This document shows positions 32,852-41,411 of a stretch of DNA of 64,000 bases, in pieces. Made by a program: the position numbers and the translations under genes. The notes under the pieces are model-generated. The model saw only the letters and a list, made by a program, of their open reading frames with translations, was not told where the DNA came from and did not search any database. Origin of the DNA: Bifidobacterium sp. B4142 (lineage in GTDB: Bacteria > Actinomycetota > Actinomycetes > Actinomycetales > Bifidobacteriaceae). The DNA lies in assembly GCF_026537325.1 (NCBI RefSeq), contig NZ_JAFNMJ010000001.1:744001-808000 (forward strand), read 5' to 3'. Every line of letters begins with the position of its first letter. Position 1 is the stretch's first letter.

Positions 32852-35800
32852 TTACTCGTGCGAAGTGTGTAGCAGTTGGCGTTGTTCCCTTCTGTGGCGG
32901 CGTGAGGCGAGGACCCCGCCCATGCCGGTCATGCCCGTGGCGAGGGCGAGCAGGATGCCTTCCCCGCCTGCCTTGGGGAGCACGCCTGCAGGCAGGTACG
33001 TGTACCTGAGGGAGGTGTCGGGCGTTTGGGGTGCGCCGCCCAGCGTGTAGTCCACGCTGACTGTGACCGTGCCCGGCTGGTGTGCGGGCGTTGTCACGCT
33101 GACGCTGCTGCCGTCGCCGCGCGTCAAACCTGATACGGGTGTCTGGTCGAATCTGACGCCGGTGATCACCAGCTGCAGGTTGAACGCCACCGGCACAGGA
33201 GCCGACTTGGTGTTTGTGGTGCCGTCGCCGAGCTGGCCATTGTCGTTCCATCCCCAGGCGTAGGCGTTCCCGTCGCTGCCCACGGCCAGCGAATGATGGA
33301 ATCCGCCGCTCACCTGTGTGGCTTTCAGTCCTATGCTCTTGTCGGTGGGGTTGGCGGGGTCGCGCACGCGCGGAGGAACAGGATTCACGTCACCGTACCA
33401 GCTGACAGTGTTGTTGCCGAGCGGGCCATCCTGGTTGCATCCCCATGCCCAGGTGTTTCCGTCGCTGCCCACGGCCAGCGAATGATCGTTCCCGGCGCTG
33501 ACCTGTGTGTAGGTGAGATCCGCGGTCGTGTCTGTAGGCTTCCCTACTTTGACCGGCGTAGTACGGCTGGTGTCTGTCCCGTCGCCGAGCTGGCCATCGC
33601 CGTTGTCTCCCCAGGCGTAGGCGTTGCCGTCGCTGCCCAGGGCCAGCGAATGCCGACTTCTGGCGCTGACTTGCACGTAGGTGAAGTCCGCGGGTGTGCC
33701 TTCAGGCTTGCTCACCTTGACCGGTGTAGTCCTTTGAGTGGTTGTCCCGTCGCCGAGTTGGCCATACCAGTTGTCTCCCCATGCGTAGGCGTTCTCGTCG
33801 CTGCCCACAGCCAAGGAAAAACCATAGGATCTCCTACTGTCGTATGATGATCCGCTGACCTGGCTGAACCTGATGCCTCGGCTGGTGTCTGGCGGGGTGA
33901 GGATGGTGGTTTCGTTGCCGAGCCGGCTGCCCTGGTCGGGGTTGATTTTCCATGTATTGTTGGGGTCTTTGAAGGTCCATTTGGCGGTCAGGGTCAGATC
34001 CTTGGTGACGGGTTTGCTGAAGTCGTAGGCGACTTCGCCGGTGAACCATCCGTCGAACTGGTAGCCCTCACGCGCAGGGTCGGGGGAGGGCCGCTTCGCC
34101 CTGCCGTTCGGGGTCGGGAATTCCTGGTTTGCTGGTTCGGGTTTTCCTCCGTCCGTGTCGAAGTGGACCGTAAACGTGGATTTTTGCTCAGTGCCTCTGG
34201 TCAGCGTCTGGTCGACGGTGTAGTTGAGGTTTTTGGTGAAGGGCTGGCCGTCCTGTCTGCCGGCGAGTGTGATGGTGGCTTGTCCCGGCTTGTGGGCGGG
34301 TATGTCTGTCTGCCAGGCGTCGTTGTTCTTGGTGAGGTTGAGCGGCTGGCTGTCCATGCCGGCTGATTCCAGTGTGGGTGCCTATGCGGTGTCGGGTCTT
34401 GCCGGCTGGCCGCGCTTGCCTTGCCCGTCCAGGCTCCACGTGAGTATGTTGCCCTTCGTGCTGATGGCGGTGATCCTGCTGCCTGTCTTGACGGCTTGCA
34501 TGTAGTGCTGGTTCCCGTCGTCCGCTCGGGTGAGTGTTTCGCCTGGCTTCCAGGCCCAGAGGTGGCCGTTCGTGTCGGTGATGACGGCCTGTCTGTCGTT
34601 GGCGCTGATCGAGTTGGCTTTCATGCGTTCCGGCAGGCTGACCGCTGTGGGGCTGGTCGTGTTGTCGGCCAGGTAATGGATCTGCCTTTCTGCGTCCAGG
34701 AGGAGGAACCCCTGGTCGAGGGCCTGGGCCTGGAGAATGCGCATGCCCGGGTCCTGCCTGATGCGTTCGGGTTCGACGTTGCCGGTGTTGCTCGCATGCC
34801 AGGTCCAGGCCTGCCCGTCCGCGTCCAGGGTGAGGGTCCGGCTGCTGGTGGCGGCCGAGAGTACTGCCTGAGCCTGACCGGGCAGGTCGACTGTGGCTTG
34901 TTCTGTGGGTTTCATGTTCGGACCGTCGGTTTGGCTGGCCTGGTAGGCGTGGACCTGTCCCTGCCGGTCGACGGCCAGCAGCCGGCCGCCGTTGATGCTG
35001 ATGCTGGTGAACTTGGTGTTCTGGCCGGTATCAAGAATCGTGGGTGTCGCTTGTCCGCGGGTCCAGGTGTATATCTGCTGGTCGGATCCGAGGGCGGCCT
35101 GCCATCGGCTGCCGGCTGCAACCTGCAGGTAGCGGAACCCGCCGGGAGCCTGGGCAGGAGTGGGAACCTGCATGGGTGTGTTGTCCTGCGTCCATGTGTA
35201 GATGCGGCCGTCGCCGGTCAGGCCTACGATCTCGTTTCCTGCGCTTTGGATGCTGGTGTAGTAGGGTTCCTGCGGGCTGGGTGGGCTGATGGTCAGCCGG
35301 GCGCCGGAGGCGGGCCCGTGGTCCGGATTCAGCGTCCAGTCCGTGGTCTTCGACCATTGGGCTGTCAGGGTGGTGTCCTGGAGGATGGGGGTCTGGAAGT
35401 CGAAAGGCTGGCCGTCGAGTGTTCACCCGTCGAACCGGAAGCCTTGACGTTGCGGATTGTGTTGCGGGGGAGTGGCGAGGGTGCCGGTTTTCACGGTTGA
35501 CTGTGTTGGCTTGCTGCCGTCGTCGGGGTCGAAGCGCACCATGTGCGGAGTTTGATCATCACTATCGGATGGCTTGGTTGAAGCGGATCATGTGGTGTCA
35601 GGCGTTCCGGTCGGCGATGACGGGGTGTTTGGGCTTGGTGTCGTGGTGCTTAACGGTGAGGAAGGTGTCAGTGGTGATGGTGTGGGTAGTGGCGTGCTGG
35701 TTGCGTTGCTGTGGAGAGTGGCGGGAGTTTGCTCAGATACACGAGGGGTCTGAAGCCCCCCTGTGAGGATAGGAGCGTCCGACTGGGCGATGCGATGCCC

Positions 35801-36060
35801 AGGCCTGCCAGCAGGCCCAGCAGGACGATCATCATCACCATGATGCGACGCAGTTGGGAAACCAGGTGCATGACTTGTAAACCCCTTCACCAAACACCAA
35901 GCGAAGCCAACAGCTCGCTGATAAATGTCGTCTTTTTTCGGAAAGCTGTCCTTTCTTTCAACGCCGGATCTGTACCGGATCGCAGGAACCATGGCGGAAG
36001 CCAGCCGTCTTTTCGTTACCCCTGTTTTTCACCATACCACCCATCCGGCAAACAATACAC
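32731..36060. repeat. left copy of tandem segmental duplication
   Basis: This unit, comprising the 3' hairpin remnant, the RCC1 pseudogene and its upstream leader, matches 36261-39995 along its length. Nucleotide similarity is especially high between 34400-35560 and 38290-39460. Matching landmarks are the hairpin (32731 vs 36261), C-terminal anchor (32852 vs 36378), signal peptide (35871 vs 39778) and the leader word CCCCTTCACCAAACACCAAGCG. The copy has four canonical RCC1 repeats where the right copy has six. Confidence 0.8.
32852..35871 (-). pseudogene. LPxAG-anchored RCC1/InlB-repeat surface protein, silent copy
   Basis: Compared with the right-hand paralogue, this copy has four lesions. 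One base is lost in the signal peptide (GCATC-GCCC), so the leader from the ATG at 35871 runs into an early stop. The in-frame stops are TGA at 35588 (paralogue Gly), TGA near 35420 (paralogue Trp of FDGW) and TAG at 34382. All remaining pieces stay in one register (stops at 35588, 34382 and 32852 are in the same frame), with InlB-type repeats, a divergent propeller and four canonical RCC1 repeats. The C-terminus reads LPKAGGEG, hydrophobic stretch, RRHRR. No expression of a full product is expected. The G run after the signal peptide is only six here. It could serve as a donor for gene conversion. Confidence 0.85.
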
Positions 36061-36377: not shown

Positions 36378-39300
36378 TTACTCGTGTGAAGTATGTAGGA
36401 GTTGCTGCGTTTCTCGCCTATGGCGGCGGGATGCCAGAACCCCACCCATGCCCGTCATGCCGGTGGCCAGGGCCAGCAGAATGCCCTCACCGCCGGCCTG
36501 AGGGAGCACGCCTGCAGGTGTGTACGTGTATCTGAGGGACGTGTCGGTCAGTGTGTTTCCCGCGCCGCCCATCGTGTAGTCCACGCTGACCGTGACCGTG
36601 CCTGGCAGATGTGCAGGCGTGAGCACTGTGACGCTGTTGCTGTTGCTGACAGGAGTCAGATGTGTGCCGGGGCTGGTGTCGAACTTGGCTGCGGCGATCA
36701 CCGGTTGCAGGTTGAACATCACCGACACGGGAGCTAACTTACCGTTAGTGGTGCCGTCGCCGAGCCGACCGTTTCCGTTGTTTCCCCATGCGTACACGTA
36801 TCCGTCACTGCCCACGGCCAGCGAATGCCAGTATCCAGCACTGATCTGTGTGGCTTTTAATCCTTTGCTCGTATCAGTGGGGTTGGCGGGGTCACGCACG
36901 GGCACAGGAACATACGAATCCGTTTTTGTGTTGTTACCGAGCTGACCATACCAGTTGTATCCCCAGGAGTATGCATATCCGTCACTGCCCAGAGCCAGCG
37001 AATGCCAGTATCCGGCGCTGACCTGTGAGGCTTTCAGTCCTTTGCTCGTATCAGTAGGGTTGGCGGGGTCGCACACGCGCACAGGAAAAGGATTTCCACC
37101 GTAGCTGTCGTTGATGGTGTTGTTACCGAGTTGGCCCTTGACGTTCCATCCCCAGGCGTATGCATATCCGTCGCTGCCCACGGCCATTGAATGATCGTAT
37201 CCGGCGCTGATCTGTATGGCTTTCAGCCCTATACTCTCATCAGCAGGGCTGTCGGGAGTGCGCACGAGTACCGGGAAAGGCGAATACTCACTGGAACCGC
37301 TGGTGTTGTTGCCGAGTTGGCCATACCAGTTCCATCCCCAGGCGTATGCGTATCCGTCGCTGCTTAGAGCCAGCGAATGCCAATATCCTGCGCTGACTTG
37401 TACGGCCTTTAGTCCTCTGCTCTCGTCAGTAGGGCTGCCGGGGTCGCGTACGCGCACAGGAACATGCGAATCCGTTTTCGTGTTGTTGCCGAGTTGGCCC
37501 CAATTGTTGTTTCCCCAAGTGTAGACGTATCCGTCGCTGCCCACGGCCAACGAATGCCGACCTCCGGCGCTGACCTGTACGTAGGTGAAATTCGTTGGCA
37601 GATCTGGATACGTCTTGCGATCAGGTTTCTGTACCATGACCGGCGTATATCTGGAGTTTTTGGCCGTCCCGTCGCCGAGCTGGCCATACGTGTTGTCTCC
37701 CCAGGCGTACGCGTTCCCGTCGCTGCCCACAGCCAGGGAGAATGAACCAGTGTTTGAGCTGCTGATCTGGTTGAACTTGATACCGTTTGTATTGGTTGGT
37801 GGGGTAATGGTGGTCCTTTCACCGCCGATTTGGCTGCCCGTATCAGGGCTTATTGTCCATTTGTTTGACGACCAATGTGCAGTAAGTCTGAGGTCCTTGG
37901 TGACGGGCTTGCTGAAGTCGTAGGCGACTTCGCCTATGAACCATCCGTAGAACTGGTAACCAGCGCGCGTCGGGTCGGGGGAGGGCCGCTTCACCCTACC
38001 GTACGGGTAGCCGACTTGCTGGGGTTCCGGTGCCTGGCCTCCTCCGGCTGTATCAAAAGTGACCGTGTGGGTGGAACCCTGTTGGACATCCCTTAACAGC
38101 GGCCGATCGACGGTGTACTTGAGGCTCCTGGTGAATGGCTGGCCATCTTGTCTGCCTGTGATAGTGATGATGACTGGTCCGGGCTTATGGGCTGGAGCTT
38201 CTACCTGCCAGGTGTCGTCTGTTTTGCTGAGCGTCAATGCCTGGCCGCTCATGCTGGCTGATTCTAGTGTGAACGTTGTGATAGTGGCGATTCTTGCAGG
38301 CTTGCCCTGATCACTGTGAGGGTTCAGGCCCCAGGTGAACAAGTTGCCTTGCCCGTCTATGGCAGTGATCCTGCTGCCGGCTTCGGCGGCCTGCATGTAC
38401 TGCTGGCTCCCGTTGTCCATACGCATGGGTGCTTCGCCCGGCTTCCAGGCCCAAAGGTGGCCGTCCGTGTCGGTGATGACGGCCTGGCTATCGTTGGCGC
38501 TGATCGAGTTGGCTTTCATGCGTTCCGGCAGGCTGACCGCTGTCGAACTGGTCGCGCTGTCAGCCAGGTAATTGATCTGCCTTTCTGCGTCCAGGAGGAG
38601 GAACTCTTGGTTGAGGGCTTGGGCTTGGATGATGCGCATGCCCGGGTTTTGTTTGATGCGTTCGGGTTTGATGTTGCCGGTGTTGCTCGTGTCCCAGGTC
38701 CAGGCTTGCCCGTCCGAGTCCAGGGCGAGGATCCGGCTGCTGGAGGCGACGGCTGTGACGGATTGCGTCTTTCCGGGCAGGCTGGTTGCTGCCTGCTCTA
38801 TACATTTCGTGTTCGGGTTCGGGTTCTGACCGGACTGGTAGGTGTGGATCTGTCCTTGCCGGTCAACGGCCAGCAGCCGGTCGTCGTTGATGCTGATGCT
38901 GGTGAATTTGGTGTTCTTGCTGGTCTCGAGGATGGTGGGCGTGGGCTGTCCGTTGGTCCAGGTGTATATCTGCTGGTCGGATCCGAGAGCAGCTTGCCAT
39001 TGGCTGTCGGCTGCGGCCTGCAGGTAGTGGAACCCGTTGGGAGCCTGGGTGGGGAGAGGAAATTGTACGGGTGTGCCGTCTTGCGTCCAGGTGTAGATGT
39101 GGCCGTCCCCGGTCAGACCGATAAACCGGTCTCCTGCGCTTTGGATGCTGGTGTAGTAGGGTTCCCGCGGGCTGGGCAGGTTGATGGTCAGCCGGGCGCC
39201 GGAGGCGGGCCCGTGGTCAGGGCTCAGTGTCCAGTCCGTGATTTTCGTCCATTGGGCTTTCAGGGTGGTGTCCTGGAGGATGGGGGTCTGGAAGTCGAAG

Positions 39301-39778
39301 GGCTGGCCGTCACGTGTCCATCCGTCGAATCGGAAGCCTTGACGTTGCGGGTTCTGTTGCGGGGGAGTGGCGAGGGTGCCGGTTTTCACGGTTGATTGTG
39401 TTGGCTTGCTTTCGTCGGCTGGGTCGAAGCGCACCATGTGCGAAGCTTGATCATCCGTCTTATCGGATGGCTTGGTTGAAGCGGATCCTGTGTTGCCTGG
39501 GCTGCTTGTCGGCGATGACGGGGTGTCCGGGTTTGGTGTGGTGGTGCTTAATGGTGAGGAAGGTGTCAGCGGTGATGGTTTGGGTAGTGGTGTGCTGGTT
39601 GCGTTGCTGGGGAGAGTGCCGGGGGTTTGGTTAGCTACGCGAGGGGTCTGACGACCCCCCCCCCCCCGGTGAGTATGGGAGCGTCCGCCTGGGCGGATGC
39701 GACGCCCAAGCCTGCCAGCAGGCTCATCAGGACGGTCATCATCGCCAGGATGCGACGCAGACGGGAAACCAGATGCAT
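36378..39778 (-). CDS. phase-variable LPxAG-anchored RCC1/InlB-repeat surface protein
   Basis: The start at 39778 gives a signal peptide (MHLVSRLRRILAMMTVLMSL..ASA, residues 1-29), followed six codons later by a run of 13 G. With 13 G the frame hits TAG after 47 residues. With 11 or 14 G it joins the long downstream frame, and 14 gives 1133 residues. That protein has a Pro/Ser/Thr-rich stalk (about 45-110), an InlB/Flg_new-type repeat (FRFDGW..LKAQW), about seven divergent propeller blades (SDQQIYTW, DGQAWTW, DGHLWAW, QGNLFTWG), a second InlB-type repeat (YQFYGWF), six canonical RCC1 repeats (SLAVGSDGYVYAWG..GQLG), an IPT-like strand region, LPQAGGEG, a hydrophobic helix and RRHRR. A sortase-anchored adhesin or carbohydrate-binding protein is likely; the ligand is unknown. 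As assembled the gene is OFF. Confidence 0.85.
36740..37770 (-). repeat. six RCC1 coding repeats, period about 180 bases
   Basis: The word encoding SDGxxYAWG, with flanking (L/M)AxGS and GQLGxxT, recurs six times, near 36800, 36985, 37165, 37350, 37530 and 37720, with high similarity between units. The silent copy has four such units (33265-33820). Near-identical units of this kind readily change number by recombination or slippage. Confidence 0.75.
39655..39667 (-). repeat. G13 homopolymer (contingency) tract
   Basis: Thirteen consecutive C on the given strand are 13 G on the coding strand, six codons after the predicted signal-peptide cleavage site of the RCC1 surface protein. Tracts of this length are prone to slippage in replication. 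The register needed for full-length translation is 3k+2 (11 or 14 G). In the silent paralogue the same site has only six G, in the correct register. Confidence 0.85.
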
Positions 39779-40031
39779 GAAACCAAAACCCCTTCACCAA
39801 ACACCAAGCGGAATCAGAACCGCTTACCGAATAAAGTTCTGTCTGTCGGAAAGCCACCCATTGCTCAACGTCAGTCCGTGCAACAGATTGCACGAATCCT
39901 GACGCAAGCCAGTCGTCTTCTCGACGTCCCCCGCTTTTCACCCTACCACCCAGCCCGCCAACAACACACAAGCCAGGTCCAACCGCCCGGAGACAATGAA
40001 CCCGACTGATCTCAAAGAAAGGAGCCAGCGC

Positions 40032-41411
40032 ATGACCAACCAGGGATACTATCTGCCGGGACTCTACGTTCGGGAGGGGTCCATCCCCGTTCCCTTGGAC
40101 TGGGCGGGCAGTGAACCTGGCGTCTGGCGAGCCGAAGACCATTCGGACCAGGCGGTCATCCGCTGCTTCTACCGCGTGGTCTGCGCACCCGAGCACATCC
40201 ACGACGACCTGCCGCTGCTGGTCTACCTGCAGGGCGGACCCGGCTCGGGCGCCCCACGGCCGCTGAACGCCACTGCCGACGGGTGGATGGCCGAGGCTTT
40301 ACGCCACTTCAGCATTGTCCTGCCCGACCAGCGGGGTACAGGCCGGTCCAGCGCCATCGACGGCTCCACCATGGCCTCCCTAGGCGAGCCCCGGGCCCAG
40401 GCCGACTATCTGAAGCATTTTCTGGCGGACTCCATCATCCGGGACTTCGAGCACCTGCGTCGTACGGTCTTCGCCGGCCGTCCCTGGGTGGCCCTTGGAC
40501 AGAGTTTCGGCGGCTTCCTGACCCTGGCCTACCTGTCGAACTTCCCGCAAGGGCTTGCTGCGGCCTTCACTGCCGGGGGCGTGCCGCACATCCTCACGGA
40601 TGCCTATGAGCTCTTCTCCCACACATTCGCCAAAATGGCCCAACGGTCCCAGGCTTTCTACCAGCGCTATCCGGGGGATCAAGACCGTGTGGCAGCTATT
40701 GCCGACCGGCTGGCCCAGGGCGATGTGGTCCTGCCCGGCGGCGACCCCCTGAGTGTGGAGCGGCTGCAGACTCTGGGCGCGGACCTGGGCAAGAGCGGCG
40801 GGTTCGAGCGCCTTCACTGGCTGCTGGACACGGCCTTCCTGGATGGCGACGGCAGCCTGCCCGTTTCCAGTGCTAGCAGCTCCCGGGCCACCCTCTCGCA
40901 GACTTTCCTGGAGGGGGTGCGGGCGGCCACCTCGGTCAGCCCGCTCTACTGGCCCCTGCAGGAGTTCATCTACGCCGACGGGAACTGCGGCCCCCTGCGC
41001 TGGGCAGGGCAGCGGGTGCGCGACACCCGCCCCGAATTCGACACCGCTGCCCGCCCGCTCATGTTCACCGGGGAGGCGATCTTCCCCTGGATGTTCGAGC
41101 AGGAGGCGGCCCTGCGCCCCTTCGGCCCGGCGGTCAGCCTGCTCATGGAGGAGGGTTCCTGGGGTCACCTGTACGATCCCGAGCGCCTGGCCGACAATCA
41201 GGTTCCCCTGCAGGCCGCGGTCTATGCCGACGACCTTTATGTGCCCTCCGAGCTCCAGCTGGACACTCTCTCGCGCGTGGGCCACGCCCATGCCTGGGTG
41301 ACCAACGAGTTCGAGCACGACGGCCTGCACGGGGACAGGGTCTTCGCCCACCTCTACCGGCTGGCCCTGGGGCGCGGCGATCTGGAGGGGCTCTTCCCGG
41401 CGCGCGGCTAG
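40032..41411 (+). CDS. S33-family alpha/beta hydrolase (proline iminopeptidase-like)
   Basis: The protein has 459 residues from the ATG at 40032, preceded by AAAGGAG seven bases upstream; an earlier ATG at 39996 lacks this. Motifs of the prolyl aminopeptidase family are GGPGSGAPRP (oxyanion loop), PDQRGTGRSS, GQSFGGFLTLAY with nucleophile Ser, and a C-terminal His in FEHDGLHGDR. It probably releases N-terminal Pro or other residues from short peptides in the cytoplasm. It is divergent from the RCC1 surface protein gene; the shared upstream region is about 250 bases. proC follows after 10 bases, which fits a proline-related pair. Confidence 0.88.
   Translation: MTNQGYYLPGLYVREGSIPVPLDWAGSEPGVWRAEDHSDQAVIRCFYRVVCAPEHIHDDLPLLVYLQGGPGSGAPRPLNATADGWMAEALRHFSIVLPDQRGTGRSSAIDGSTMASLGEPRAQADYLKHFLADSIIRDFEHLRRTVFAGRPWVALGQSFGGFLTLAYLSNFPQGLAAAFTAGGVPHILTDAYELFSHTFAKMAQRSQAFYQRYPGDQDRVAAIADRLAQGDVVLPGGDPLSVERLQTLGADLGKSGGFERLHWLLDTAFLDGDGSLPVSSASSSRATLSQTFLEGVRAATSVSPLYWPLQEFIYADGNCGPLRWAGQRVRDTRPEFDTAARPLMFTGEAIFPWMFEQEAALRPFGPAVSLLMEEGSWGHLYDPERLADNQVPLQAAVYADDLYVPSELQLDTLSRVGHAHAWVTNEFEHDGLHGDRVFAHLYRLALGRGDLEGLFPARG

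Follow-up and report, generated by a model that had tools for sequence, protein, structure and literature searches.

The Opa proteins of Neisseria are encoded by a family of many genes, in which every paralogue carries a separate repeat near its signal peptide and is switched independently by slippage; the repeat is a pentamer and the host is a Gram-negative pathogen. In bifidobacteria, the closest described system is that of B. breve UCC2003, in which G-runs of 10-11 lie between a signal-peptide ORF and an LPXTG ORF in two pilus clusters (bbr_0113 and bbr_1889; PMC9187656). Replication slippage was shown for these tracts, with lengths that vary within the population and in-frame lengths that are enriched in mice; the measured lengths differed from the annotated ones (PMC9187656). 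Poly-G stretches are also present in pilus clusters of B. dentium (PMC12104195). RCC1-repeat proteins, in turn, occur in 19 copies in B. asteroides PRL2011 (PMC3447821) and in 7-24 copies per genome in bee bifidobacteria (PMC4449606).

The window, which is the whole stretch of 64,000 nucleotides analysed here, contains a gene in which features of these systems come together. It has the same multi-paralogue slippage layout as opa, with a G-run in a Gram-positive insect symbiont instead, and no sequence kinship is implied. Like B. breve bbr_0113 and bbr_1889, it consists of a short ORF with a Sec signal, a G-run and a long ORF with an anchor motif, is OFF as annotated and would be ON depending on the number of G (PMC9187656). 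It resembles the RCC1 proteins of bee bifidobacteria in its Flg_new and RCC1 domains, its sorting-type C-terminus and its tandem arrangement (PMC3447821, PMC4449606). What the B. breve tracts switch is the leading gene of a pilus cluster that includes a dedicated sortase, whereas the window gene belongs to a large family of RCC1 paralogues and lies on contig C1, the two sortase matches of the source genome being on contigs C15 and C16. With sortase matches on those two contigs only, the window gene is not part of a pilin cluster with a dedicated sortase of the type of Penno et al.

The original prediction held that such switching is little described in bifidobacteria. The mechanism had, however, already been shown in B. 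breve (PMC9187656). For the RCC1 family of bee bifidobacteria, no report of switching was found in the open-licence literature. In the available text of the two papers on the RCC1 family, a term search found 'homopolymer' in neither (PMC3447821, PMC4449606), 'phase' was absent from PMC4449606, and 'phase variation' and 'slippage' were absent from PMC3447821. Both the mechanism and the family are known; their union and its scale were not found in print in the open-licence literature.

The tract in the window is very probably a contingency locus that switches a wall-anchored RCC1 protein by slippage. This reading of the sequence is supported by the position of the tract, the frame logic, the anchor signal, the variation in length between orthologues, the constraint on OFF bodies and the lack of a detectable MutS. 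We infer slippage in living cells, its reversibility, surface display and an adhesive role of the RCC1 protein.

Tract, frames and protein parts in the window

The homopolymer of 13 G (39655..39667, minus strand; C13 on the plus strand) is located 37 codons past the start codon, an ATG at 39778 that is preceded by a GAAGGGG stretch 10 bases to its 5' side. The ORF from this ATG (39635..39778, minus strand) specifies a signal peptide and four Gly residues encoded by the tract (MHLVSRLRR...GGGGVVRPLA), and ends after 47 codons on a TAG at 39637-39635; this is the OFF product in the present assembly. Behind the tract, the body frame (36378..39653, minus strand) is open for 1091 residues and contains a Ser/Pro-rich linker, List-Bact (Flg_new/InlB-type) repeats, RCC1 repeats and an LPQAG anchor. 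Re-reading the sequence thus bore out the predicted tract on the coding (minus) strand, the early TAG in the signal-peptide frame and the long repeat-containing frame with its anchor.

Six RCC1 and two List-Bact (Flg_new) stretches were detected in the body using Pfam, and its sequence matches among PDB chains are mostly RCC1-type propellers, e.g., UVR8, HERC2, and RCC1; the body is therefore predicted to fold as an RCC1-type propeller. The C-terminal sorting-type signal (36381..36506, minus strand) consists of an LPxTG-like motif, LPQAG (36506-36492), a hydrophobic stretch and a charged RRHRR tail, and most of its positions are invariant or nearly so in 12 aligned sequences; cleavage by a sortase is predicted. 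The adhesin of the original prediction is putative, as a sorting-type C-terminus and β-propeller repeats are all that is visible.

In the proposed mechanism, the polymerase would slip while copying the G-run, by which run length and reading frame would come to vary among descendant cells. In one frame, the ribosome would proceed from the signal peptide into the body to give the wall-anchored RCC1 protein, while in the other two it would meet a stop shortly past the tract (OFF). With a tract of its own in front of each paralogue, a population could carry many surface combinations. MutS domain V was not found in the source genome using a search that was positive in 11 of 14 control genomes, and NucS is present. 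NucS-type repair is not known to correct indels in homopolymers.

Runs of at least 11 G give three overlapping matches in the window, against a mean of 0.30 in 100 dinucleotide shuffles, 4 of which reach three. Runs of 8 G are not rare in the window (9 matches, 10.7 expected by shuffling), so that recurrence of the tract at the same place in relatives is the better evidence. A scan for promoters and terminators gave about as many matches as in shuffled sequences. A GTG ORF of 1274 aa (40202-36378, minus strand), which has no evident signal peptide, crosses the G13 tract in the body frame and overlaps an ORF on the opposite strand (39996-41411); because of this ORF, automatic annotation may wrongly report an intact gene.

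Tract length and frame in related genomes

The tract was followed in 27 congeneric genomes, one per species and including the source genome (2.22 Mb, 19 contigs), the nearest named relatives of which are B. apousia, B. mizhiense, B. mellis, B. polysaccharolyticum, B. choladohabitans, and Bifidobacterium sp. 7101. The named relatives inhabit honey bees. A pattern of one C and at least seven G followed by TCGTCAGACCCC was found at 73 places in 11 of the 27 genomes, the source genome among them, with 1 to 15 places per genome where present. One more copy has an A before the G-run (L135), giving a total of at least 74. As the patterns used to collect these 74 copies required a tract, only the census of 34 genes presented below speaks to the generality of the arrangement.

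Both flanks could be read for 72 copies, L073 and L077 being set aside for their short upstream flank at a contig edge. Tract length in the 72 copies was 12 G in 45, 11 in 13, 13 in six, 14 in four, 15 in three, and 17 in one. The signal-peptide frame enters the body in 18 copies (ON) and is OFF in 54, where it ends after 39 to 71 codons from the start codon chosen by the script; this start is doubtful for L083 and L132, which are OFF with a proper start too. L073 has G11 and is ON, with 1134 aa, and the start of L077 falls beyond the contig end; among all resolved tract copies, 19 of 73 are in frame and 54 are out of frame. Tracts of 11, 14 or 17 G give ON as a rule, the exceptions being L064 (13 G, ON) and L135 (11 G, OFF), in which the signal-peptide parts differ in length. 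One of the two OFF frames reaches its stop 7 codons past the tract in all 72 copies, the other after 5 codons in 71 of them. Among the 18 ON copies, L106 (64 aa) and L107 (790 aa) show only a short body within the stretch covered.

The number of ON copies (18 of 72) is compatible with a share of one third (p 0.17), and for this reason no claim is drawn from the excess of G12. No copy is ON in genomes G021 (0 of 16), G010 (0 of 5) and G023 (0 of 5), as compared with 7 of 12 in G019; these differences and the G12 excess (45 of 72) could partly mirror sequencing or assembly habits. GGG accounts for 14 % of the Gly codons in the bodies (1033 of 7164), whereas the glycines after the signal peptide are encoded by a pure G-run, a contrast that illustrates rather than tests, the 74 copies having been selected for the G-run.

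The length of 13 G could itself be a sequencing or assembly error, the true length of the tract in the window being different. Homopolymers are error-prone, and this draft assembly contains an implausible run of 85 G at the very end of contig C18 (L019:3007-3091) as well as a G22 facing a C9 near the end of contig C1 (L008:3011-3053), both of which are probably artefacts of sequencing or assembly and call for caution about the tract lengths of this draft. In B. breve, too, measured lengths departed from the annotation (PMC9187656). An error of this kind would nevertheless leave unexplained both the family-wide pattern and the spread of lengths (11-17) among copies of one genome, which is also seen in the single-contig assemblies G007 and G019. 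We regard it as unlikely, albeit deserving of attention, and it may hold for the window copy while the switch stands.

Tract length was compared between species: lengths differ in 18 of 29 reciprocal-best pairs between genomes at a flank identity of at least 90 % (the pairs share members), in 10 of 18 at 92 % or more, and in 5 of 6 at 94 % or more. In the clearest pair (L086/L133), the flanks are 99.2 % identical and G11 (ON) stands against G12 (OFF). On a quick tree from the bodies of 70 copies, with two bodies of less than 700 codons left out, the ON/OFF state requires 13 changes for 17 ON copies, compared to 15.5 (sd 1.1) for shuffled labels; 13 or fewer changes were needed in 17 of 300 shuffles, and in 26 of 300 when labels were shuffled within genomes. 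For tract length, 21 changes are required versus 24.8 after shuffling, a value reached in 1 of 300 shuffles and in 6 of 300 within genomes. The ON/OFF state thus shows only a weak kinship signal and is close to random on the tree, and tract length follows descent to some extent, as expected if length changes in one-base steps.

Gene conversion of promoter, signal peptide and tract as one homogenised 5' cassette was also considered. It was dropped, as the mean identity of the 5' part (0.72-0.83) was not clearly above that of the body (0.69-0.79) in 42 sampled paralogue pairs from five genomes, compared within the main subfamily and over two body stretches.

Long homopolymers can also cause RNA polymerase slippage. 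With a tract of fixed length, slippage during transcription or frameshifting by the ribosome at the G-run might therefore yield the two products, in which case an OFF length would still give some protein; since close orthologues vary in length and frame, which would be needless for a fixed programmed signal, this explanation has little probability.

Tract-less copies and constraint on OFF genes

RCC1 paralogues occur in tandem arrays: the window holds a decayed second copy, and the relatives show series with many tract copies spaced at about 4.1 kb. In the decayed copy (32852..35992, minus strand), the tract is G6 and the frame breaks, the body being left in pieces (32852-34357 and 34382-35173) with two TGA and one TAG inside. 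Elsewhere in the source genome, two more RCC1 genes identified by Pfam (L012 and L018), located on contigs C11 (about 78.5 kb) and C16 (about 39.2 kb), carry G15 after the signal peptide, have quite different flanks and are both OFF, whereby all three tract-bearing RCC1 genes that were framed among the 19 matches listed for this genome are OFF. Two RCC1 genes of the same genome without a tract (L136 and L137) are open from a signal-peptide-like start. A G10 located about 18 bases past the stop of another of its RCC1 genes (L004:3085-3094) cannot switch that frame.

A census of RCC1 genes not chosen by their tract was made by a protein search of the 27 genomes, which yielded, among the matches listed, 34 further genes with a match starting at query residue 9 or before. 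At least 10 G were present in the start region of nine of these, two in frame and seven out of frame. The other 25, with at most 6 G, were all in frame and had a hydrophobic, signal-peptide-like start, which indicates that breaks concentrate at the tract. The listed matches of that kind beyond the 34 are L139 (G6, in frame) and the decayed copy of the window, which is the one tract-less copy found out of frame. When the census is pooled with the 72 copies above, 20 of 81 genes with a tract are in frame versus 25 of 25 without one (Fisher p 2.5e-12, a guide only, as the genes are related). In three copies (L153, L164, and L168), the G-run is broken up by other bases; all three are in frame and look like locked-ON forms.

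The bodies of OFF genes are mostly intact: in the stretches covered, 51 of 54 have no stop for 900 codons or more, and the remaining three are open for 650, 788, and 840 codons. dN/dS was calculated with a Nei-Gojobori script over at most 999 codons for 20 pairs picked from the closest pairs. It ranged from 0.15 to 0.55 in 13 OFF-OFF pairs, among them the window copy paired with L082, its nearest relative (0.35; both OFF). In the seven pairs in which one or both copies are ON, it ranged from 0.10 to 0.75, the highest value resting on very few changes. As OFF bodies are constrained over such distances, these genes were probably ON during a large part of their history. The truly broken tandem neighbour and the three OFF genes of the source genome would fit a window gene that is dying, with the out-of-frame tract as its first frameshift, but the constraint on OFF bodies, the window copy included, and the intact frames of the 25 tract-less census genes make this highly improbable.

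The slippage phase-variation layout proposed in the original prediction is thus supported by comparison, through the frames, the differences in length and the constrained OFF bodies. Three of the features expected of a gene with translational phase variation by a poly-G repeat were found: a homopolymer in the 5' coding region sets the frame, its length differs between close orthologues, and OFF bodies are intact.

Other putative switched fronts and a possible surface repertoire

In the more distant genome G002, the frame logic is that of the window gene, with the G-run located within the signal peptide. Two complete G10 copies continue for 1102 and 1103 residues and a third stays open as far as the stretch extends, while in G11 copies the frame ends at 24 to 35 codons; L143, L144, and L145 are among these genes with a G-run within the signal peptide, open with G10 and closed with G11. 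Pfam assigns the nine bodies behind such runs to RCC1 (six), leucine-rich-repeat (two), and List-Bact-repeat (one) proteins, from which it appears that the switched front is not confined to RCC1 bodies.

Runs of at least 10 G number 30 in the source genome, of which two are doubtful because they lie at contig ends, and 6 to 98 per genome in 26 of the 27 congeneric genomes. The neighbours of other tracts in the source genome, for which Pfam on 39 proteins gives co-location only, include GH38 alpha-mannosidase genes (L003, L011), HsdM and GmrSD-type genes (L002, L017), Abi_2 (L016), GH43 (L017), and an ABC ATPase (L015).

It seems somewhat probable that bee-gut bifidobacteria have a combinatorial surface repertoire, in which a genome would hold as many as about 15 RCC1 wall proteins, all switched independently through separate G-runs, beside tract-less, locked-ON copies. 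In one relative, the front also heads leucine-rich-repeat and List-Bact-repeat proteins. If true, the repertoire together with the many other G-runs would make up a phasome comparable in scale to those of Neisseria or Campylobacter, here in a symbiont of the insect gut. The finding links the RCC1 surface family of bee bifidobacteria to the pilus switch by G-tracts known from B. breve. It suggests that stochastic switching acts on highly variable surface proteins of a bee symbiont, which could account for such genes seeming broken in assemblies. The bee gut, with its culturable strains, would offer a simple system in which to study selection on commensal surface variants by the host, phage or neighbours.
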